The notes beneath the pieces were generated by a model. It was not told where the DNA came from and ran no database searches. It saw only the letters and a program-made list of their open reading frames with translations. Made by a program: the position numbers and the translations under genes. DNA of 64,000 nt from Ensifer sesbaniae. Lineage in GTDB: Bacteria > Pseudomonadota > Alphaproteobacteria > Rhizobiales > Rhizobiaceae. The stretch lies in contig NZ_JABEKU010000002.1 of the NCBI RefSeq assembly GCF_013283665.1, positions 184,863 to 248,862 of the forward strand, in the 5' to 3' direction. Shown here one piece after another: positions 23,634-36,989 of the stretch. Each line of letters starts with the position of its first letter. Within the stretch, counting starts at the first letter, position 1.

Positions 23634-24178
23634 CTACTTTCCGATTTCCTCCCTCTCAACAATCGAGAGGCAACTCCAGATCGTGCGGTGGTCGCCGATC
23701 CCGAGAGGATCGATATGCGCCCGGACACGCTTGGAAAGCGAAGTTGCGCTAAGCAGTTCGGCTGACACCAGTCGGCGCTTTCGCGATAGACCGTGGAACG
23801 GCCAAGGCCAAGCTGCCTGGCGGCTTCCGCCGGTGGTCTTTTTCGCCTCGATCAGCTTCATGGCTGCCTTGACTTTCTCTATGTCCAGCGGTTGGCGCCG
23901 CGTCGCTTTCCCTTTGCCCTTGCGGCAGCCACACCGTCTTTAATCCGTTCCGAGATCAGTCGCCTTTCGAAATGCGCGATGGCACCGAAGACATGGAAAA
24001 TGAACTCGCCGGCGGCCGAAGAGGTGTCGATCTTCTCCTCAAGGCTGAGGAGGTCGATCTGTCGCCCCCGCAGCATCTTCACCGTTTCCAGCAGCTCCGC
24101 CAGTGACCGTCCGAGCCGGTCGAGCCGCACGACGTTAGTGTCGCCAGCGCGGGCATAATGCAGGCCGAGAGCAGACAA
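23634..24178 (-). pseudogene. Serine resolvase/invertase fragment, frameshifted
   Basis: The frame at 23879-24178 gives RLDRLGRSLAELLETVKML, then RGRQIDLLSLEEKIDTSSA and GEFIFHVFGAIAHFERRLIS, the core and E-helix region of small serine recombinases. The next frame continues with VKAAMKLIEAKKTTGG and a degraded version of the DNA-binding LGLGRSTVYRE motif. The N-terminal catalytic part with the active-site serine (YARVST region) is missing, so it is inactive. Confidence 0.8.
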
Positions 24179-24612
24179 TGTCGGATCACGTGCACGATCT
24201 CGCGGCAGCGTATGGGCTTCGTGGGGCGACCCGGAGAGATATCCCCTTCATGATCGAGGCGGCTTGGGACACAGATGAAGGCATGGTGATCGCCGCCCGC
24301 ATCATCGACGTGCTGCGCCAAGCCAACCCCGCGATCTCAACCATCGAGCGCGCCGGCATCGCGGGCCGGGCGCAGGCCAGGAAACAGGCGGCTCATGCGC
24401 TTGTCACCGGTCTTCGGCCGGTGCAACTGGACGCGCTCGATGCCCTAATGATCCTCGAGGCCGGCAGGGGTACCATACCGCTCACGTGGCTCAAGCCAAT
24501 CCCGACGGCGGCAAAGCCCGATTACGTTCGCGACATTCTCGAGCGCCTGCGAATGGTGAGGTACATCGGGGTTCCGGCGAAACTGACCGCCGCCGTGCAC
24601 CCCGACCGATAG
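24178..24612 (+). pseudogene. Tn3-family transposase N-terminal fragment (DUF4158 region)
   Basis: A 144-residue frame resembling the DUF4158 domain: DLAAAYGLRGATRRDIPFM, ISTIERAGIAGRAQARKQA, LTWLKPIPTAAKPDYVRDIL and ERLRMVRYIGVPAKLTAAV, ending at HPDR where the full protein (about 990 residues) would continue. The DDE catalytic domain is absent. Confidence 0.8.
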
Positions 24613-25080
24613 TAAGACCGGTGCTCTCGTCGGTGATGATGTCTTGAGTGAGAATATCCAATGCCATCGGTCAATCTCCCAATAGAACGAATTGATCAAA
24701 GAAAGAGACACCAGCTACTACGAGCCAATCGATTTATACGTGGGCTCTACGCGCCTTCTTCGAACCGTTCAAGTCATCCGCAATGACTGACTAATATATC
24801 TGTAGTTGTACCTCACTTCGACGCCTGATCAGTTCGACGGCAAAAAAGCGTTGCGGCTGAATGGGTTGTGTCGTCACATGTCGCGGTAGTGATTAGGATC
24901 ACATGAGGCGAGGGTCGCTTTCAGCACGAATGCAACCAACAGAAGCTTGATGCTGTGGCCCAGAGCCGCCCGGAAAGGCGTCGCAAGCGGCTCTGGAACC
25001 ACTTTTGCGACCCCGGCGGTGGATGACGCCAAGGTTGCATCAGGATATTCCGCGATTGAATTGCCCGACAAGGAGAGTAG
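24613..25080. other. Intergenic region upstream of the two-component locus
   Basis: One minus-strand frame at 24874-25071 (65 residues, TTG start) has a hydrophobic segment IKLLLVAFVLKATLA but no good ribosome site; I do not call it. Otherwise nothing recognisable. Confidence 0.35.
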
Positions 25081-25115
25081 GACTTTTGCCGCCCCGCATA
25101 GGACTTAGGTCCTAT
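25081..25115 (+). promoter_or_regulatory. Composite motif copy A (GACTTTTG ... GGACTTAGGTCC)
   Basis: GACTTTTG at 25081-25088, then 21 bp later the palindrome ATAGGACTTAGGTCCTAT (25098-25115). The same two-part arrangement recurs at 25237, 28381 and 30343 around the two-component genes. Probably a binding site of the NarL-type regulator encoded at 26231-26881. Confidence 0.6.
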
Positions 25116-25236
25116 ATGCACGAACCCACGACAACGGGCTGCAAGCAATCTACTCCCCAACCCGGTCGCACCAGCCCATCAAGTCACAGTCACGGATCGA
25201 AGCGCCGAAGACCGGAACCGGGGGCAACCGAACTAA

Positions 25237-25270
25237 GACCTTTGCGGCTAAGAATGGGGACTGAAGTCCC
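25237..25270 (+). promoter_or_regulatory. Composite motif copy B (GACCTTTG ... GGGACTGAAGTCCC)
   Basis: GACCTTTG at 25237-25244 and the palindrome GGGACTGAAGTCCC at 25257-25270, start-to-start spacing about 22 bp. It lies about 155 bp before an intrinsic terminator, so it may drive a short transcript. Confidence 0.6.
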
Positions 25271-25464
25271 ATGGCGTACGCTTTGGCGCCACTCTACCTT
25301 TTTGACACGCGCCATACACCGGAGCGGCAGTTTCCAAGCCCGTCTACGGTATGCCTACAACTGGGGCCAACCAAGAGCCTCCACAGATCGGCGCCCCTGA
25401 CACTTGGCCCCTTGGTTTACCTCAACGGCTCCATAGGGAGAACTCCTCAAGGGGCCGTCTTTTT
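25271..25464 (+). ncRNA. Candidate small regulatory RNA ending at an intrinsic terminator
   Basis: There is no credible coding frame between motif B and the strong terminator at 25426-25464. The stretch can fold internally: GGGGCCAA (25363-25370) pairs with TTGGCCCC (25404-25411). The combination of an upstream regulatory motif, internal stem and terminator suggests a small RNA of roughly 100-190 nt. The 5' end is unknown. Confidence 0.4.
25426..25464 (+). terminator. Strong intrinsic terminator
   Basis: Outer stem CGGCTCC (25426-25432) with GGGGCCG (25451-25457), including one G-T pair. An inner GGAG/CTCC stem is present, followed by TCTTTTT (25458-25464). There is no coding gene directly upstream. 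Confidence 0.7.
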
Positions 25465-25746
25465 CTGCCGGACCGCGGCAGCGGGCTCAACCCGATAACA
25501 GCAAGCAGAGGCAGGCTCGGTCGCGTCTGCCGAGCTGATCCGCCAGATCGCGCCCGCGAATCCCCGCCCGGTTTTCCGACCATCGTCTGGCCTGGATGGG
25601 ACGAAGGTCTGGCCCATCTGGGGGAAAAGTCCTGTACAGGCAGGATCTTTGCCGGGGCGAGTTGACTGCGTGTCTCGGTCGGGGGCAAAGTTCGTTCGTT
25701 GCCCGCCGCGCTGAGTGCGCTTTGCGCACGAAAAGACCTTGGAGAC

Positions 25747-26181
25747 ATGATGATCACGCGTCGGATGATCCTGACAGCATTCTTGCCGGCAGTCTGCACC
25801 CTCGCCATCTCTACACCCTACAGTCTCGAAATGTCGGGCGCCGGGCTTGCGATCGTCAAGTCGGCAGCCTTCGCCAACAATGGCAATGGTGGCGGAGGCG
25901 GGGGCGGCAATGGCGGTGGGAACGGTGGAGGAAATGGTGGCGGGAACGGAGGCGGGGGCTCAAATGGCGGCGATCGCTCCAACTCCAACAGCGAGCGTTC
26001 CAACGGCTCCAATCGTGGCACAAAGGCCAAAGGAGAGGATGTCGGCGTACGCCACGAAGGCGGCATCACCGAAGAGATTGCGAATGGCCGCTACATCATG
26101 AAGGATGCCCGCGGACGCACGATCATCAATCGCCGCGCGACGGCAAGCGATAGAAAACGAATAGATTCGTTCTTGCATTAG
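25747..26181 (+). CDS. Secreted glycine/asparagine-rich protein
   Basis: The product is 144 residues. An N-terminal signal (TRRMILTAFLPAVCTLAIS, with a twin-arginine-like RR only two residues from the start) is followed by a low-complexity Gly/Asn stretch of about 35 residues (NNGNGGGGGGGNGGG pattern). Then come a Ser/Asn-rich linker and a compact C-terminal domain (EDVGVRHEGGITEEIANGRY, IMKDARGRTIINRRATASD). A GGAG ribosome site precedes ATG 25747. It is encoded beside the two-component genes and parallels the second secreted protein at 28543 in layout (signal, then a Gly-rich repeat starting right after cleavage). A cell-surface or matrix role is inferred; the family is not known to me. Confidence 0.7.
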   Translation: MMITRRMILTAFLPAVCTLAISTPYSLEMSGAGLAIVKSAAFANNGNGGGGGGGNGGGNGGGNGGGNGGGGSNGGDRSNSNSERSNGSNRGTKAKGEDVGVRHEGGITEEIANGRYIMKDARGRTIINRRATASDRKRIDSFLH

Positions 26182-26230
26182 CCAATGGCGGTCGCACAAA
26201 GCCGGTCGGACGGTCCTGGTACGATGTGGA

Positions 26231-26881
26231 TCAGACGTCGCGCGCATCGCGCAGCACCATCGCCGCTTCGGTGCGATTGGCGGCACCCAGTTTCGTCATG
26301 ATCTGCGTCATGTGATGCTTTACGGTCTTTTCCTGCAGGTCCAGTTGGATTGCAACATGCTTGTTGCTCATGCCGGCTGCCACCAATTCCAGAACCTCCC
26401 GTTCACGAGGCGTTAGGTTGGCGACTAGGCCAGACTTGCTGCCCGCCGCCGGTGCCCGGCTGGACAGGAGCTTGGCCGACAAGGTCGGCGCAACGTAGCG
26501 GTCCCCCGAAGCCACGGTGCGAATGACGTCGGCAAGCGCTCTTGCGCCAACGCCCTTCAGCACATAACCGGTGGCCCCCCGATCCAGTGCAGTTGTCACG
26601 TCGTCACCGTCTTCGGAAACGGTGAGCATGATAATCTTCTGCGACGGGACGATTTGCAGCACCGCCGGTATCGCCTCCAGCCCGCCGCCGGGCATGGAAA
26701 TGTCCATGAGCATGATATCCGGCCGGAGGCTTCCCGCGATCTGGGTGGCATCATCCTTCGAGCTGCCCTCGGCGACAATTTCGAAGCCCTCGATCTCCGA
26801 CAGGCTCCGGATCACACCCTCCCGAAACAAGGGATGATCGTCCACGACAGCAACGCGAATTGGAAACACCATAATTGTCAT
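26231..26881 (-). CDS. NarL/LuxR-type response regulator
   Basis: The product is 216 residues. The receiver domain has the acidic pair VVDDHPLFREG, phospho-acceptor Asp at about residue 60 (DIMLMDISMP), and the conserved Thr and Lys (IIMLTVSEDG, GYVLKGVG). The C-terminal LuxR helix-turn-helix is LTPREREVLELVAAGMSNK, HVAIQLDLQEKTVKHHMTQI. The start overlaps the kinase stop by 4 bp (ATGA), so the two are coupled. It probably binds the composite motifs found at 25081, 25237, 28381 and 30343. Confidence 0.95.
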   Translation of the reverse strand: MTIMVFPIRVAVVDDHPLFREGVIRSLSEIEGFEIVAEGSSKDDATQIAGSLRPDIMLMDISMPGGGLEAIPAVLQIVPSQKIIMLTVSEDGDDVTTALDRGATGYVLKGVGARALADVIRTVASGDRYVAPTLSAKLLSSRAPAAGSKSGLVANLTPREREVLELVAAGMSNKHVAIQLDLQEKTVKHHMTQIMTKLGAANRTEAAMVLRDARDV

Positions 26882-28320
26882 AGCTCCTTGACGCTGGTCG
26901 TCATGCGAACGGTTGTCCCGGTCGCCGCTGTGACGACCTCGAACGTTCCTCCGAGACTTTCGATCCGTTCTCTGAGGCCGGCAAGACCAAGACTTGTGGG
27001 CAGAACTGTGTCCGGATCAAAACCGGGCCCACTGTCCACAACCTCGATCATGACGCGGTCGCCATCCATCCGCTGGGACACCCGTTGCCCAATACCGCCG
27101 CCGTGACGAAAGCCGTTGTTGAGCGTCTCTTGCACGAATCGGTAGATGCATATCTTCGCGGCGTGCGAGATGCGTTCGGGAGGCTTGGTCAACTGCAGTT
27201 CGACCGGCGCCCCCGTCCGCTGCTGATGCGCCTTTACGCACCGCTCCAGAATCTCAGTCAGACCTGCCGTCTCTATCTGCGGCAGGACCAGACCGCCGCA
27301 GATCGTGCGAATCTCCTGCATCGCCTCGTCCAAGCTCGCCTTTATCGCAGCGATTTCGCGATCACGCGTGGCCACCGGCATTTTGCTGCGCTTCAAGGCT
27401 TCACTGTCCAATCTGAGCGACGCATAGGCCACGAGTTGCGCAGGGCCATCGTGCAGGTCCGCCCCGATGCGTCTCAGATAGCTTTCGTTCAACGCTGTGG
27501 CGCGCTGCGACGCGCGCTGGAGGCGACCCCGCAACATTTCATTCTGGGCAAGCGATGCCGAGAGCTCATCGACCCTTTGCTTGAGGGCATGACGCTGGAT
27601 CTCGATCGTCTTGCTGCCGCGAAGCACGATTGCCGACAGCACGACAAAGAAGGCAAGTGTGAAGGCTGCGACCGCCAGCCACGTGTGCATACGCGCCTGA
27701 TTGAGACTTTGCTGAAACTCATTGGCAACTTCGTGGAATTCCGACACCGCAACCACCTGTCCGGACCAGGGCTGCAGCACGGGATTGTAAATAACGAGCG
27801 CCGGCACGGCTGAACCTTTGTCAGCCGCTACTTCTCCTTCCGGGTCGAAGCGTGCAGCCATCTTGCCCGAGAATGCGGTTTGTAATTCATCGCTGAGCCC
27901 AATCTTCGCACCGACAGCGGCCCGATCACTCGCATAGAGGAGCGTGCCGTCCGCACGCCAAAGACGAAAGGAGAGAAGCCGGTCACCCAATGCGCCCTGG
28001 CCAAGGGTCTCGTCCAGCGCCCGAGCCACGGTCTCGTCGAGGACTTCATTCTTCTGCATGTCGGGTAGCAGCGGCGCGATCACGCTATCGACGTACAGTG
28101 CTGTCGTCGCGGCCGAGTTTCGGGTGACGGCGTCTTCGATTCTGTTCGAAACAAAGGCTCCGATCAGCACCATGGCGCATGCGGCAACGGCTCCTCCGAT
28201 CAGCAGGAACTGCGTGGCAAGCGATTGAGAATTCCAACGGGTTATGAGTCGATTTACGCGCACCAGGTCTCTCGGATCGGGCCGCCGGCTCGTACGGCGT
28301 GACGATTGTAGCAAGGCCAC
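26878..28320 (-). CDS. NarL-type sensor histidine kinase
   Basis: The product is 480 residues. Two transmembrane helices (about 36-57 and 213-233) bracket a periplasmic sensor of about 150 residues. A cytoplasmic coiled-coil (HALKQRVDELSASLAQNEML) leads to the HisKA_3 box with phospho-acceptor His290 (IGADLHDGPAQLVAYASLRL). The ATPase domain has CIYRFVQETLNNGFRHGGG (N box), VVDSGPGFDP and LGLAGLRERIESLGG. It phosphorylates the co-encoded regulator. It is transcribed divergently from the secreted-protein gene at 28543, with motif copy C between them, so autoregulation is likely. The signal is unknown. Confidence 0.94.
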   Translation of the reverse strand: MALLQSSRRTSRRPDPRDLVRVNRLITRWNSQSLATQFLLIGGAVAACAMVLIGAFVSNRIEDAVTRNSAATTALYVDSVIAPLLPDMQKNEVLDETVARALDETLGQGALGDRLLSFRLWRADGTLLYASDRAAVGAKIGLSDELQTAFSGKMAARFDPEGEVAADKGSAVPALVIYNPVLQPWSGQVVAVSEFHEVANEFQQSLNQARMHTWLAVAAFTLAFFVVLSAIVLRGSKTIEIQRHALKQRVDELSASLAQNEMLRGRLQRASQRATALNESYLRRIGADLHDGPAQLVAYASLRLDSEALKRSKMPVATRDREIAAIKASLDEAMQEIRTICGGLVLPQIETAGLTEILERCVKAHQQRTGAPVELQLTKPPERISHAAKICIYRFVQETLNNGFRHGGGIGQRVSQRMDGDRVMIEVVDSGPGFDPDTVLPTSLGLAGLRERIESLGGTFEVVTAATGTTVRMTTSVKEL

Positions 28321-28380
28321 GCCAACCTAACCACTCTCAGGACGCGGTCAATGGCGCGGCAATCTCAGCAATTTTGATCG

Positions 28381-28414
28381 GACCTTTGATGTCCCAGGCT
28401 CAGACCTAAGTCCC
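28381..28414 (+). promoter_or_regulatory. Composite motif copy C (GACCTTTG ... AGACCTAAGTCCC)
   Basis: GACCTTTG at 28381-28388 and GACCTAAGTC at 28403-28412, spacing 22 bp. It lies in the divergent promoter region between the kinase gene (starts 28320) and the secreted-protein gene (starts 28543), the best-placed of the four copies for a direct regulatory role. Confidence 0.65.
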
Positions 28415-28542
28415 GGGCGCGGAGGCAATGGTCGGGGGCCGGTGGCGCCGTATCCGGCGCGCAGATATCGTCCTTGCATCAAACGCCGTCCGCTCGGTTC
28501 CGCGAGAGGACAGTAATAGCAAGTCGGAATAAGGAGTTTCAC

Positions 28543-29262
28543 ATGGCTACGACGACGAAACTGGTCGCACGAGGCATCATGGCATTGACGCTGGCAATCG
28601 CGCCCGTGGCTGGCGGTAGCTTGGCGCTGGGCGGGGTCGCCTATGCCAAGGGCGGCAACGGCGGCGATCATGGTGGCGATCATGGAGGCGGCCACGGCAG
28701 CGATCGTGGCGGCAATTCCGGCCACGGTAAATCCGACGATGCGAAGAGCACCAAGGAGACGAAGGGAAGCAAGTCCGGCGAGAAGTCGCGCCTGAAGTCG
28801 AACGTTTCGAAGGGCAAAGAAAATGCGTCTAAACCGGTGAAGGCCGAAAAGGTCGTCAAACCAGCGCCGGTGGTGGTTGAACCTGTCGTTGAGCCTGTGG
28901 TTGAACCTGTCACGCCGGAAGCAACACCGGGTTTCGCTTCGCTCAACCGGAACTACCACGCTTACCTCAATTCGAACGATCCGAAGATGGCGGGTATCCA
29001 GGCCTACGCGAAGGCCTATGCCGAGTTTGAGGCTGAAAATGGCGTGGATGCCGTCCCTACGGATCCGGCCTTGAGCGACGAAGCGTTGCGCGACGCGCTC
29101 GCCGGCTTCACCAAGGACGGTGTCGTGACCGACGATATGGTCGACGACGCCAAGGAGATCCTCGGCGTTGGCCCTGCGGTCGGAAAGATCGACGAAATCC
29201 GCGAAACACTGCCGCCAGCGACGGTGGATGAGACCGATCCGGACGCAGAAATCGCTCAATAA
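28543..29262 (+). CDS. Secreted Gly/His-rich and Val-Glu-Pro-repeat protein
   Basis: The product is 239 residues with an AAGGAG ribosome site. The signal peptide ends near GVAYAKGG. A Gly/His/Asp-rich stretch (NGGDHGGDHGGGHGSDRGG) could bind metal. A Lys/Ser-rich segment, a repeat of PVVEPVVEPV (about residues 110-125) and a C-terminal domain of about 110 residues (GFASLNRNYHAYLNSNDPKM, ALRDALAGFTKDGVVTDDMV) follow. It resembles the Gly-rich protein at 25747 in overall layout. Its position opposite the kinase and next to motif C suggests it is a regulon member. Function unknown. Confidence 0.75.
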   Translation: MATTTKLVARGIMALTLAIAPVAGGSLALGGVAYAKGGNGGDHGGDHGGGHGSDRGGNSGHGKSDDAKSTKETKGSKSGEKSRLKSNVSKGKENASKPVKAEKVVKPAPVVVEPVVEPVVEPVTPEATPGFASLNRNYHAYLNSNDPKMAGIQAYAKAYAEFEAENGVDAVPTDPALSDEALRDALAGFTKDGVVTDDMVDDAKEILGVGPAVGKIDEIRETLPPATVDETDPDAEIAQ

Positions 29263-29328
29263 AACAAAGACAGGCAGCCGGCTCCGGCGACTGTTGTCGG
29301 GCCGGTTGCCAACCAGGCGGGAGTTCGA

Positions 29329-30093
29329 ATGTTTGATCGTGTTGCGGAAGCCTTCGACTACGCCGTGAAACAAGGACGCGTCGGCTTTTCACTTCAACAC
29401 ATCAACTCAGCCGCCGACGTCGGCAACGTGCTTTATTCGGAATGCTTGGGTAGGCTCGTCAAGCCCGACGGCGAAATCATGACAGCCAGCGAGTTCGTCG
29501 GCTATCTGGAGGCGGCGGGCCGCATCGCGACACTCGATAGGCATATGCTCGCCCTGGCTTTTGACTGGCTCGCATGCCAGCCACACGGTGTCCTCGGCTG
29601 CAACATTTCGGTCGAGAGCATTTCCGACGAACGCAACAGAGCGCTTCTCTTCGATCTGCTGTCTGCTAACGCGCGGTTTGCATCGCGGCTTGTCCTCGAA
29701 CTGACGGAAAGCCTGCCCATGTCGGGAATTCCGGCGGCCTGCCGCTTCCTTCAAAGTCTGCAGGCGCTCGGTTACAGGATTGCCGTCGATGACTTCGGCA
29801 CCGGATTCTCGACGCCTGAGGCACTCTTGTCGCTGCCGGTCGACATCGTGAAGATCGACGGATTTTTCCTGCGTCTGGATCGTGGTGACGCGGAGCGTTT
29901 TCTCTCGCATATGGTCGGTCTTGCATCCTGCGTCGCGCCGATCGTGGTCATTGAAGGCGTTGAAACCTATGCGCAATTCGAAGCCGCGCAGGTCGCAGGG
30001 GCAACGCATGTTCAAGGGTTTCTGCTCTCCGAGCCTACCCTCACTCCGCTATTTGGTGGAGAATTCCGCTCTCGCGCGACGATGGAGTGCTGA
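29329..30093 (+). CDS. EAL-domain protein (putative c-di-GMP phosphodiesterase)
   Basis: A 254-residue stand-alone EAL domain. The signature EAL is ECL here (LYSECLGRL, residues 38-40), keeping the metal-binding Glu. Other catalytic motifs are present: CNISVES (Asn), LVLELTES (Glu), AVDDFGTGFSTPEAL (Asp pair and loop 6), VDIVKIDGFF (Lys) and VIEGVETYAQ (Glu), ending with ATHVQGFLLSEP. Hydrolysis of c-di-GMP is therefore plausible. It follows the secreted-protein gene by 66 bp in the same direction, so the two-component system may control a c-di-GMP output with its surface proteins. Confidence 0.85.
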   Translation: MFDRVAEAFDYAVKQGRVGFSLQHINSAADVGNVLYSECLGRLVKPDGEIMTASEFVGYLEAAGRIATLDRHMLALAFDWLACQPHGVLGCNISVESISDERNRALLFDLLSANARFASRLVLELTESLPMSGIPAACRFLQSLQALGYRIAVDDFGTGFSTPEALLSLPVDIVKIDGFFLRLDRGDAERFLSHMVGLASCVAPIVVIEGVETYAQFEAAQVAGATHVQGFLLSEPTLTPLFGGEFRSRATMEC

Positions 30094-30223
30094 GAGCAGG
30101 GGCAAGATCACTGTTTTCATTAAGCTGCCTGCCTTCGGACGCACACCTCCAGTCTCGCAATAGTGTGCAGCCGAGCGCTGATTAATAATCGCCCTGCCGC
30201 CTAAAAAATGTTCCGGAGAAGAG

Positions 30224-30273
30224 GGGATCCCAGAGCATCTGGTCGCTTGGGGCTGGGGGTGCTCTGGGATCCC
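30224..30273. repeat. 14-bp perfect inverted repeat downstream of the EAL gene
   Basis: GGGATCCCAGAGCA (30224-30237) and TGCTCTGGGATCCC (30260-30273) with a 22-nt loop and no T-tract. It may act as a transcript 3' structure for the EAL gene. Confidence 0.6.
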
Positions 30274-30342
30274 GAGCGCCACCGGTGCCGTTGGCGCTCA
30301 CCAAGCAATGTCAGGGCAAATCGGATTCGGCAATGCAACTAC

Positions 30343-30376
30343 GACCTTTGCCTGAGTGCATCGGACCTAAGTCTTA
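30343..30376 (+). promoter_or_regulatory. Composite motif copy D (GACCTTTG ... GGACCTAAGTCTTAGG)
   Basis: GACCTTTG at 30343-30350 and GACCTAAGTC at 30364-30373, spacing 21 bp. No intact plus-strand gene lies directly downstream. It could serve an unannotated transcript reaching the hairpin at 30522-30578. Confidence 0.55.
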
Positions 30377-30521
30377 GGTTGTGTCATCTCCCGGGTGGGA
30401 ACTCCGCGCAACGCATATTCTCTGGGCGACGCGCGGCTCTCTGGTGCTGGATGAGCAGTTCAAAAACTTCCGCCGGGGCAAGGTATTTTAGGGCGTAACG
30501 TTGATTTCCCGCTAAACGACG

Positions 30522-30578
30522 TGGCCTTTATCAACATGGGGCACCGCTCCCGCGATTACCCCATGTTGATAAAGGCCA
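30522..30578. repeat. Perfect 20-bp inverted repeat
   Basis: The arms 30522-30541 and 30559-30578 are exact reverse complements (TGGCCTTTATCAACATGGGG and its complement) with a 17-nt loop. There is no T-tract. It is far longer than a typical terminator stem in this window and lies 50 bp downstream of the minus-strand XRE gene's stop. Confidence 0.7.
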
Positions 30579-30627
30579 TGTATCGTCAGGAACCGCCCGC
30601 AGGTTAGCGAGGGCGCTGGCGCAAAGG

Positions 30628-30843
30628 CTAGTCCAATTCTGCTTTGCGCATGATATCAAACGGGTCGGCGCCGATCGCACGGCTGACTTTCACGAACTCG
30701 GCAGCATCCAACCGGCGTTCCCCAAGTTCAACCTTGGAAACGAACGTTTGCCGTTGGCCAATACGCTGCCCTAGTTCGACCTGAGTGATGTTCGCAACTT
30801 TGCGAGCCGCGATGAGCCCGTCAATCATTCGACCGTAAACCAT
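30628..30843 (-). CDS. Small XRE-family transcriptional regulator
   Basis: A 71-residue protein that is almost only a helix-turn-helix: MIDGLIAARKVANITQVELG, QRIGQRQTFVSKVELGERRL, AEFVKVSRAIGADPFDIM. ATG 30843 starts the domain directly; the longer frame to 30993 runs through the promoter palindrome and is unlikely. Such solitary XRE proteins are often autoregulators or antitoxin-like. It is divergent from a decayed LysR gene. A near-perfect palindrome at 30914-30931 is its likely operator. Confidence 0.8.
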   Translation of the reverse strand: MVYGRMIDGLIAARKVANITQVELGQRIGQRQTFVSKVELGERRLDAAEFVKVSRAIGADPFDIMRKAELD

Positions 30844-30913
30844 TGCGTGGAACGAAAACAAATTAGAGCGCCAGTTTGAGAAAGCAGACGCCTTCAATAA
30901 AACCGATTCTCGG

Positions 30914-30931
30914 ATACCCCAAATAGGGTAT
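30914..30931. promoter_or_regulatory. Palindromic operator candidate for the XRE regulator
   Basis: ATACCCCAAATAGGGTAT: 6-bp arms ATACCC/GGGTAT around a CAAATA centre, located about 70 bp upstream of the XRE start and 55 bp upstream of the LysR relic. Confidence 0.55.
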
Positions 30932-30985
30932 TGTTGGTTGCATGGGGGCGGATCACTCGCGTTTACGTGGGCCGAAAATCGGAGC

Positions 30986-31680
30986 ATGGACATGGAACTA
31001 CGTCAGCTTTCCTACTTTGTTGCCGTAGCCGAAGAGTTGCACTTCAACCGTGCGGCCGCGCGGATGTGCATCGCCCAGCGGGCGCTGAGCTCGCATATCC
31101 AAGCGTTGGAGAAGGAGCTCGATGTCCGATTGCTGGAACGGTCGACGCGCCGGGTCGAGCTGACGCGGGCAGGGGAGGTGTTCCACGATCGGGCGCTGCG
31201 GATCATTGGCGATGTCGGGCTGTCGATGGATGTGGCGCGATCGGTGGCCGGCAAGGTGGCACGGACGATCAAGATCGGGACCGTCTATCCGGTAACGACT
31301 GGTGTGCTGCCGGCGTTTCTGGCACGCATCGGCCGAACGTTCCCGGATGTCGCGCTGCAGCTCGCTGGCGCTTCGAAGCGAGATCGATATCGAGGACCTT
31401 CGCTCAGAGAAGATCATCGCTTTCTCCCGTCAGAACCTGTCCTATAGCGAGCAGCTGCGACGACACCTTCTCGCTGGTGTCGCTGGTTTCTGCCGGTCTT
31501 GGCATCGGCTTTGCGCCGGAATGGACGAAGGATCTCCCGAATCGCAACTTCGAGCTCAGACCCGTGCGCGGGGTCGATCTCAAGATTGGTCTTGGCGTTG
31601 CCTGGAACAAGGAAGATCCGACCGCGTCGAGAGACGACATCATCGACATTGCCCGGTCACTGGCACGGCCGGGTAGGTGA
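30986..31680 (+). pseudogene. LysR-family regulator, multiply frameshifted
   Basis: The N-terminus is intact: MELRQLSYFVAVAEELHFNR, AAARMCIAQRALSSHIQALE and KELDVRLLERSTRRVELTRA. After about residue 125 the effector domain is scattered over three frames: IDIEDLRSEKIIAFSRQNLS in one, then TFSLVSLVSAGLGIGFAPEW and KIGLGVAWNKEDPTASRDDI in another. The summed length is about 65 residues short of a normal LysR protein, so deletions as well as shifts occurred. Confidence 0.85.
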
Positions 31681-31731
31681 GGAACTTAGGCGCTGCGTGG
31701 AAGCCGCATGCCCATTCCGCAGAGTTGTCCC

Positions 31732-32055
31732 CTAAGACAGCAATCCGAGACCATGCTTTTGCACTATCGAGAGCAACTTCAATGCTGGGCCGCTCGGCCG
31801 CTTCGCGCCGGTTTCCCACTTTTGCACTGTGGATTCACTGGTGTTCAGGTAGCGCGCGAAGACTGGCTGGCTGACATGATTGTTCTCGCGCAGCGCCTTG
31901 ATCTCACCCGGCGTCAGCTCCTGCGGGACGGACAGGCAAGTCTCGTCGAAGGTCTTCATGGTTTCCTTGTCGATGGTGCCTGCCGCATACATGTCTTCGA
32001 CGGCGCTATGGATCGCCTCAAAGGCATCGCTCTTGAACTTGCGCTTGGTCGTCAT
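31732..32055 (-). CDS. HigA/NadS-type XRE antitoxin
   Basis: A 107-residue protein: MTTKRKFKSDAFEAIHSAVE, then SVPQELTPGEIKALRENNHV and SQPVFARYLNTSESTVQKWE, the HTH pattern of antitoxins paired with RelE/HigB-2-like toxins, ending GPALKLLSIVQKHGL. ATG 32055 overlaps the end of the toxin frame by 38 bp. As in other higBA loci, the toxin gene comes first. The antitoxin is intact although its toxin partner is broken; it would still bind its promoter. Confidence 0.85.
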   Translation of the reverse strand: MTTKRKFKSDAFEAIHSAVEDMYAAGTIDKETMKTFDETCLSVPQELTPGEIKALRENNHVSQPVFARYLNTSESTVQKWETGAKRPSGPALKLLSIVQKHGLGLLS

Positions 32056-35904: not shown

Positions 35905-36989
35905 CAAGTGCGACATGCCAATGATTTCAATGGCTTCCCCTTGGAGATTTTGGAATGTCACGACGCTATTCGCAGCTGAATCTGGCCGATCGACGCCGCC
36001 TCTTCCACTTTGTCGAACGCAAACTGCCGATCAAAGAAATGGCGCGCCAACTCGGTCGTCATCGATCGACGATCTATCGTGAGATCAGACGCAACACCTT
36101 CCACGATCGCGAGCTGCCCGATTATAACGGCTACTTCCCAACGGTTGCTGACGACATCCGCAAAGAGCGGCGGCAGCGTTTGAGGAAGCTTGTGCGGCAC
36201 CCGCAATTGCGCGAACTGGTGATCGAGCAGCTGAAGGCGCTTTGGTCCCCTGAACAGATCGCCGGTCGTCTGCTCGCCGATGGCGTGAGCGCCGTGCGTG
36301 TCTGCACCGAGACGATCTATCGCTTTATCTACGGCAAGGAAGATCAGGCGCTGGAGCTCTATCAGCATCTGCCGGAAGGCCGCCGCAAACGCCGCCCCCG
36401 CGGCTCGAGGAAACCCCGCGACGGCGGCTTTCCTGCTGCCTGCAGGATATCGCAACGTCCTGATTTCATTGGTGATCGTTCGCAGTTCGGCCATTGGGAG
36501 GGCGACTTGCTGATCTTCCAACGTGACTTGGGCAACGCCAACGTCACGTCCTTGGTTGAGCGCAAGAGCCGCTACACCGTGATGATAAAAAACCAGAGCC
36601 GGCACTCACGACCGATCATGGACAAGATCATCGAAACGTTCTCTCCCTTGCCAGCCTTTGCGCGGCAGAGCTTCACCTTTGATCGCGGCACGGAGTTCGC
36701 CGCTTTTAGGGCTTTGGAAGATGGCATTGGCGCGCGCAGCTGGTTCTGCGACCCCAGTGCGCCGTGGCAGAAAGGTGCGGTGGAAAACGCCAACAAGCGC
36801 ATCCGCCGCTTCATGCCCAGCGATACCGATCTATCCGCTGTCAGCCAACAACAGCTCGTCGCTCTCGTCCATCATCTGAACGCGCTGCCACGCAAGTGCC
36901 TGGGTTACCGCACGCCCGCCGAGGTCTTCATGGCGCATTTGCGCGACTGCGCGTGATGCCCTACCCTTCACACGGCAATGTTGCACTTG
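35905..36989 (+). mobile_element. IS30-family insertion sequence
   Basis: A single transposase gene is bounded by imperfect inverted repeats: CAAGTGCGACATGCC at 35905-35919 and GGCAATGTTGCACTTG at 36974-36989. Total length is about 1.09 kb, normal for IS30. I cannot define a clear target duplication. The element appears intact. Confidence 0.8.
35955..36956 (+). CDS. IS30-family transposase
   Basis: A 333-residue protein. The N-terminal HTH is LADRRRLFHFVERKLPIKEM, ARQLGRHRSTIYREIRRN. The DDE catalytic core has FGHWEGDLLIFQRD (first Asp), SFTFDRGTEFAAF (second Asp) and APWQKGAVENANKRIRRF (Glu). It ends NALPRKCLGYRTPAEVFMAH as IS30 transposases do. All key residues are present, so it is probably active. 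Confidence 0.97.
   Translation: MSRRYSQLNLADRRRLFHFVERKLPIKEMARQLGRHRSTIYREIRRNTFHDRELPDYNGYFPTVADDIRKERRQRLRKLVRHPQLRELVIEQLKALWSPEQIAGRLLADGVSAVRVCTETIYRFIYGKEDQALELYQHLPEGRRKRRPRGSRKPRDGGFPAACRISQRPDFIGDRSQFGHWEGDLLIFQRDLGNANVTSLVERKSRYTVMIKNQSRHSRPIMDKIIETFSPLPAFARQSFTFDRGTEFAAFRALEDGIGARSWFCDPSAPWQKGAVENANKRIRRFMPSDTDLSAVSQQQLVALVHHLNALPRKCLGYRTPAEVFMAHLRDCA

Follow-up and report, generated by a model that had tools for sequence, protein, structure and literature searches.

A composite palindromic motif at the emm locus of Ensifer sesbaniae: a probable operator of the response regulator EmmC

The emm locus and its recurrent motif

We analysed a 64,000-nucleotide stretch of the Ensifer sesbaniae genome (contig NZ_JABEKU010000002.1, positions 184,863 to 248,862; hereafter the window), in which a NarL-type two-component system is accompanied by four copies of a composite motif that we propose to be binding sites of the system's response regulator (Table 1). 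In this regulator a receiver domain (PF00072, 9.4e-20) is joined to a GerE/LuxR-type helix-turn-helix domain (PF00196, 3.1e-21), and the adjacent kinase is of the HisKA_3 type (PF07730, 1.3e-5; PF02518, 7.4e-8). Compared with the named families of NCBIfam, the regulator scored 157.9 of the 250 needed for NarL and 140.6 of 300 for MctR, and it reached no curated cut-off among the best 25 of 71 matches. The two genes are flanked by a gene for a Gly-rich protein with a signal-like N terminus and, beyond the kinase, by a second gene of this kind, which is probably co-transcribed with an EAL-domain gene 66 bp further on. Secretion of these proteins was judged by eye, and neither of the two signal-bearing proteins gave a match in Pfam or NCBIfam.

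The EmmABC system of Sinorhizobium meliloti was reportedly described by Morris and Gonzalez in 2009. In similarity searches the window locus was nearest to Sinorhizobium chiapasense and Ensifer adhaerens, and the same gene order was found on pSymB of S. meliloti 1021 at about 1,443 kb, inside region B301. As in S. meliloti, the secreted protein, the kinase (72.5% over 91%) and the regulator (74%) lie together; in the 15 other genomes of the genus, regulator matches ranged from 54 to 92%. The passage available of PMC12239276 places emmABC in B301 on pSymB, with homology arms near nt 1,204,420 and 1,530,068. In an excerpt of the review PMC3233446, EmmA is secreted to the periplasm, EmmB is the sensor and EmmC the response protein, and emm mutations raise succinoglycan synthesis and lower motility and stress tolerance; the system is described there as acting on exopolysaccharide, motility, stress tolerance and symbiosis of this model rhizobium. 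An excerpt of PMC10659215 counts EmmB-EmmC among the systems for envelope integrity, and part of PMC8227245 is a further source on S. meliloti EmmABC. Because of the shared gene order with pSymB, the position in B301 and the review descriptions of EmmA, EmmB and EmmC, we assign the locus, judging from its sequence, as the Ensifer counterpart of emmABC, with names that rest on review passages. The NarL-type two-component locus recognized in a first-pass annotation, made from the letters of the window, is thus not an unknown one. Telling against the assignment, two reviews (one of them PMC3233446), as far as their passages go, call the emm genes chromosomal, whereas PMC12239276 puts them on pSymB.

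Table 1. Features of the emm region, in window coordinates.
Feature	Position	Strand	Basis or detail
Second-type hairpin, candidate structured RNA	24955..25002	-	leftwards from putative operator 1; conserved in 3 genomes
Putative operator 1	25081..25112	+	GACTTTTG-N12-GGACTTAGGTCC
Putative operator 2	25237..25269	+	GACCTTTG-N13-GGACTGAAGTCC
Stretch corresponding to EcfG-type promoter of genome G010 (locus L099)	25276..25303	+	by eye; GTACG where L099 has GGAAC
Gly-rich protein with signal-like N terminus, EmmA counterpart	25750..26181	+	open reading frame; similar gene at same place by regulator in S. meliloti 1021
NarL-type response regulator, EmmC counterpart	26231..26881	-	Response_reg + GerE
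HisKA_3 sensor kinase, EmmB counterpart	26878..28320 (start possibly 28263)	-	Pfam and S. meliloti similarity
Putative operator 3, three-part	28380..28433	+	GGACCTTTG 28380-28388, GACCTAAGTC 28403-28412, CAATGGTC 28426-28433; divergent kinase/secreted-protein promoter
Second protein with signal-like N terminus	28543..29262	+	open reading frame; similar gene behind S. meliloti operator
EAL-domain protein	29329..30093	+	PF00563 1.3e-40
Two-hairpin RNA, R2 set	30223..30312	-	leftwards from putative operator 4; 85.3 bits, fold z -3.7
TTGCCGAATC, -35-like element	30324..30333	-	9 nt past CAAAGGTC
Putative operator 4	30343..30373	+	GACCTTTG-N13-GACCTAAGTC

The motif combines GACYTTTG, found at 25081, 25237, 28381 and 30343 on the forward strand as the first-pass annotation had it, with a palindrome that starts at 25102 (GACTTAGGTC), 25259 (GACTGAAGTC), 28403 and 30364 (both GACCTAAGTC). 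The start-to-start distances of 21, 22, 22 and 21 bp agree with the 21-22 bp originally given and with two helical turns between the parts, which are separated by a gap of 13-14. Singly, the parts occur at about chance frequency (GACYTTTG five times in the window vs 3.5 expected, the palindrome with up to two mismatches 40 times vs 32 expected); only the composite is rare. A total of one match in 1000 dinucleotide shuffles, vs four in the window, is a circular comparison because the pattern was derived from these very four sites. Non-circular support came from scans with GACYTTTG-N11..16-GACYKNRGTC, using the reversed pattern as control: the 6.9 Mb genome holds six matches, the window's four and two more, vs none for the control, and 16 Ensifer genomes hold 61, including these six, vs one. 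Given these counts, the model matches and the sites at EmmC loci of other genera described below, the idea that four short sequences resemble each other by chance is refuted, and its probability is practically negligible, even with each half alone near chance frequency. The repeated motif is real and, as had been predicted, rare genome-wide. Its uniform orientation holds for this genome (six forward, none reverse) and breaks down in relatives.

Genes were called (open reading frames of at least 50 aa) around 61 sites, namely 60 matches of the genus, with one odd match in genome G015 excluded, and the site of S. meliloti 1021. All but two lie outside called genes (59/61), vs 40% of positions drawn at random from these loci, and an adjacent gene start is found within 700 nt for 55 sites and within 300 nt for 41.

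A model, R1, was built from the 57 sites with a gap of 13 or 14, which gave the consensus TAGGACCTTTGC-N11/12-GGACTTAAGTCC. The palindrome has T/G and C/T variants, and the spacer diverges among sites, and the boxes stay conserved. At 28381 the description as a two-part motif proved incomplete, as a third box, CAATGGTC, follows at 28426-28433. The placement of this copy between the kinase (start 28320 or 28263, reverse strand) and the second secreted protein (start 28543, forward strand) was confirmed, in support of an autoregulatory position. The array is roughly symmetric because CAATGGTC is approximately the reverse complement of the first box, GGACCTTTG, and the model matched here on the reverse strand (C2:213262-213295, E 0.11). 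The third-box pattern CAAYGGTC is by itself no evidence, with 12 scattered occurrences in the window vs 4.4 expected. The three-part layout is also found in other genera, where loci L146, L147 and L149 score at least 30 in both orientations, and in S. meliloti a pair of full palindromes spaced by 22 bp, GGACTTTGGTCC and GGACGATCGTCC, was seen by eye upstream of emmA. On account of the three-part array and this double palindrome, the unit is best described as a GGAC-N4-GTCC inverted repeat recurring every two helical turns. Operators of the NarL/FixJ family, such as NarL heptamers and GacA palindromes, are inverted repeats of which several may stand two helical turns apart, and the sites resemble them in both respects. 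To our knowledge, a tandem or triple GGAC-N4-GTCC core is not a familiar NarL/FixJ arrangement.

Association of the motif with EmmC

The first-pass annotation had held that the motif, if it belonged to this system, should stand beside homologous regulator loci, and in other genera it does. We fetched 40 EmmC loci of other Rhizobiaceae genera (identity 54-79%; G247, G168 and lower-ranked ones left out), of which 25 scored at least 16 with a motif matrix vs none of 200 shuffled loci (maximum 10.7); 24 of the 25 scoring sites lie outside called genes. For orthologues of at least 70% identity, the top-scoring site usually precedes the kinase, at a distance of 1.5-1.6 kb from the gene for the regulator, and the S. 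meliloti site is at the same place as in the window. Outside the genus, 12 of 31 exact matches fall within 5 kb of an EmmC match.

The motif and the regulator are also co-distributed. Among 297 genomes of the family, 74 carry an EmmC match at E 1e-55. EmmC is present in 22 of the 27 genomes that have the exact pattern (Fisher 1e-10) and in 27 of the 29 that have a model match at E 0.02 (Fisher 2e-16); once the five genomes of the same genus are set aside, 22 of 24 model-positive genomes carry EmmC (Fisher 1.6e-13), all three values ignoring shared ancestry. Two genomes of the genus add to this pattern. G014 lacks a kinase orthologue (best match 35%) and keeps EmmC at 89%, with the regulator gene directly behind a putative operator (model match E 0.0016) and seven exact sites retained. 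In G015 the regulator reaches only 54%, no model match was found at E 0.5, and the one odd exact match has a gap of 11. Based on the co-distribution, the sites at EmmC loci of other genera and the contrast between G014 and G015, EmmC is most likely the protein that binds, the evidence being correlational. A genome such as G014, with the regulator and no kinase orthologue, offers a natural experiment. In its locus L066 (G014:C3:714000-732500) no kinase gene lies between the putative operator and the regulator gene; by eye, the neighbours are a gene for a 1646-aa protein and genes resembling type I secretion parts.

We also considered that a different general-stress regulator binds the sites and that EmmC is a target rather than the binder. 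Such a regulator would fit the many non-emm sites that adjoin EcfG-type promoters (22/59, see below), the site that precedes a CsbD-like gene in this genome, and the 15 of the 40 EmmC loci of other genera in which no strong site was found. The nearness of exact matches outside the genus to the regulator gene and the presence of EmmC in nearly all motif-bearing genomes by model argue against it, as do the sites kept in G014 in spite of the missing kinase; moreover, the clusters inspected in full, those of the window, L065 and L066, share only EmmC as an evident gene for a DNA-binding protein. We judge this alternative distinctly unlikely.

Several observations nevertheless weigh against EmmC as the binder. 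The 15 loci just mentioned score below 16, and 47 of the 74 EmmC-bearing genomes have no model match, a count made under stricter filters that lose weak matches. Conversely, 5 of 27 genomes with the exact pattern and 2 of 29 with a model match (G035 and G146) lack EmmC at the threshold. The Fisher values, as stated, take no account of common descent. The recognition helix is nearly the same whether or not a locus has the motif and therefore gives no account of the motif's presence or absence. Convergent gene pairs flank 3 of the 61 sites. The set of 59 sites used below (two in-gene sites, L074 and L117, and the odd G015 match dropped; S. meliloti 1021 included) contains both orthologues and paralogues, so the effective numbers are smaller. 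With these points taken in, we put the probability at about three in four that the EmmC-type regulator has its operator in this motif, composed of two or three units and controlling emmBC, the secreted-protein/EAL operon and other promoters.

Stress-type promoters and a two-hairpin RNA beside the sites

The first-pass annotation had pictured a self-contained regulon, with matches confined to promoters of homologues of the window's genes. Neither was supported: at least three more sites occur elsewhere in this genome, two exact (C1:715364 and C2:159350) and one found by the model (C2:1328859). Candidate targets in this genome are the genes that flank the emm intergenic regions on either side and genes next to these additional sites. 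The site at C2:159350 lies 108 bp before a CsbD-like gene, and that at C1:715364 adjoins a small secreted-like protein without a Pfam match; a Pfam search with two short proteins neighbouring sites gave none. Relatives carry up to 12 exact matches per genome, one of these 12 inside a gene, which sets the window's genus apart from the system as known in S. meliloti. Inspected by eye, the neighbours in relatives include further secreted-like, small membrane and other small proteins, and not all sites are oriented as in promoters. Of the proposed coupling to surface proteins and cyclic diguanylate (c-di-GMP), the link of the sites to the secreted proteins and the EAL protein stood, and the sole pointer to c-di-GMP is the EAL gene behind the site.

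Class A comprises the 22 of the 59 sites at which GGAA[CA] starts precisely 8 nt beyond the palindrome, and in 18 of these 22 GTT follows 15-18 nt on, vs 392 of 5193 GGAA[CA] occurrences elsewhere (7.5%); four class A sites lack it. According to a passage of PMC6011840, the RpoE2 promoter consensus is GGAAC-N18-TT. The class A sites of relatives thus resemble EcfG/RpoE2 stress promoters of alphaproteobacteria (GGAAC-N16..18-(c)gTT, 18/22) in both elements and in their reported spacing, and differ from plain ones in the palindromic site that ends a fixed 7 bp upstream; their sigma dependence is a prediction. In the window itself, the site at 25237 carries GTACG at 25276-25280 in place of GGAAC, a point against the explanation given above; a good EcfG box is thus absent from all the window sites.

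It is unlikely, if worth serious consideration, that EmmC binds and represses, with neighbouring promoters held down until a signal changes its phosphorylation. The excerpt of PMC3233446 on raised succinoglycan synthesis in emm mutants implies a negative net effect on that trait, as repression would. At class A sites, however, the end of the palindrome is separated by 7 bp from the -35 box downstream of it, and the palindrome overlaps neither the -35 nor the -10 element. An operator position upstream of the -35 box and clear of it is more usual for activators.

On the opposite side of the sites, the left flanks of classes A and B have a TTG 9 nt past CAAAGGTC, each position of which is conserved at 75-86%. 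A reading of class B left flanks as EcfG promoters in reverse was discarded on inspection by eye, because GGAAC is missing at the distance needed. A two-hairpin element, R2, recurs leftwards of many sites, and the candidate small RNA of the first-pass annotation turned out to be one copy of it. A covariance model was built from 16 copies, among them the window copy, whose first bases may belong to the promoter. At E 0.01 it matched 33 copies, spread over 12 of the 16 genomes of the genus, with three in this genome and up to seven per genome. At E 0.001 with stricter filters, R2 was found in 4 of 5 same-genus and in 0 of 292 other family genomes. The 33 matches comprise the 16 training copies, 16 that we tested and one (G010:C10) that was left out; 14 of the 16 tested have an operator site upstream, eight at exactly 30 nt and six at 29-78, in a set in which L240 had earlier been seen by an operator and several others lay in loci fetched as operator matches.

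The pairing of R2 supports a structured RNA. An alignment of 32 distinct rows, training copies included, which had itself been fitted to the structure, has 97.0% of its pair cells paired, dropping to 29-59% when partners are slid; 35 cells show double-sided changes vs 12.0 in shuffles (0/500), and the number of pairs with such changes, five, is not above shuffles (4.0; 114/500). Searches of Rfam with window positions 24000-32000 and five loci gave two tRNAs, no family at gathering score for R2 and sub-threshold matches that included ar35 (L115 4950-5031, 35.4 of 45 bits). R2 is like the rhizobial small RNAs of Rfam (ar35, CcsR1) in being a small structured RNA with a C-rich loop, and unlike them in staying below the gathering score of every family in the stretches searched. 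A small gene follows many R2 copies on the same strand, so R2 may act as a leader; the window copy, after which no such gene was called, is more likely to be a free RNA.

The sites might instead be parts of a spread repeat family, such as an intergenic hairpin element, with the RNA being the repeat itself. The several R2 copies per genome have similar flanks and were obtained by a family search in which only this genus gave matches, as a repeat family might. No R2 match, however, adjoins class A or class C (emm) sites, other genera carry the sites although R2 was not matched in them, and the boxes are conserved while the spacer differs, which leaves this account very improbable.

For an operator of EmmC, the following mechanism can be envisaged. 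EmmB would sense an envelope signal and bring about phosphorylation of EmmC, whose phosphorylated dimers would bind units side by side on one face of the DNA, about 22 bp apart, with two units per site, or three in the case of the kinase promoter, and with degenerate outer units (GGACYTTTG). EmmC would thereby control emmBC and the secreted-protein/EAL operon. On one side, RNA polymerase with EcfG would be helped at a stress promoter 7 bp past the palindrome; on the other, another sigma factor would use the -35-like TTG for transcription into the structured RNA and often a small gene. More tentatively, at odds we would place a little short of even, Ensifer EmmC may run a network of cassettes, some leading into an EcfG stress promoter and others into a multicopy, genus-specific structured RNA, by which envelope signalling would be joined to the stress response and RNA control, and in which the operator can persist without the kinase.

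An operator for a known regulator is of the expected kind; its coupling to stress promoters and a genus-specific RNA is less expected. Literature searches, in the passages they returned, described no EmmC operator, binding site or direct regulon, and neither the EcfG-linked operator arrangement nor the two-hairpin RNA; titles retrieved by the motif letters look unrelated, among the matches listed. A defined operator would make the EmmC regulon testable and would place EmmC next to the general stress response. R2 adds a covarying, multicopy RNA with no Rfam match in the stretches searched and a putative operator at a nearly fixed distance.

Variant sites and other features of the region

The second-type hairpin to the left of the first site (Table 1) has one pair with changes on both sides. 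Variant operator-like sites of the form GGACCTTTG-N-GGACCAA(A/G)GTCC recur at corresponding places across several genomes, namely in L192, L194 and L197-L203. By eye, the adjoining 3' end is that of a Ku-like gene in L192 and L194 and that of an ABC-F-like gene in L197-L203, five of the latter seven also preceding a small membrane protein.

A short open reading frame at 23879-24178 matches only the second half of a resolvase domain, and a transposase (phrog_4646) lies at 35955-36956, so the emm locus is near mobile-element remains. To the right of the fourth site, a 23-nt inverted repeat (30519-30581; 96% complementary, 17-nt loop), a candidate terminator or repeat element, precedes a helix-turn-helix gene, which is adjoined by a gene for a LysR-type regulator (30992-31680) that is seemingly split across two reading frames.

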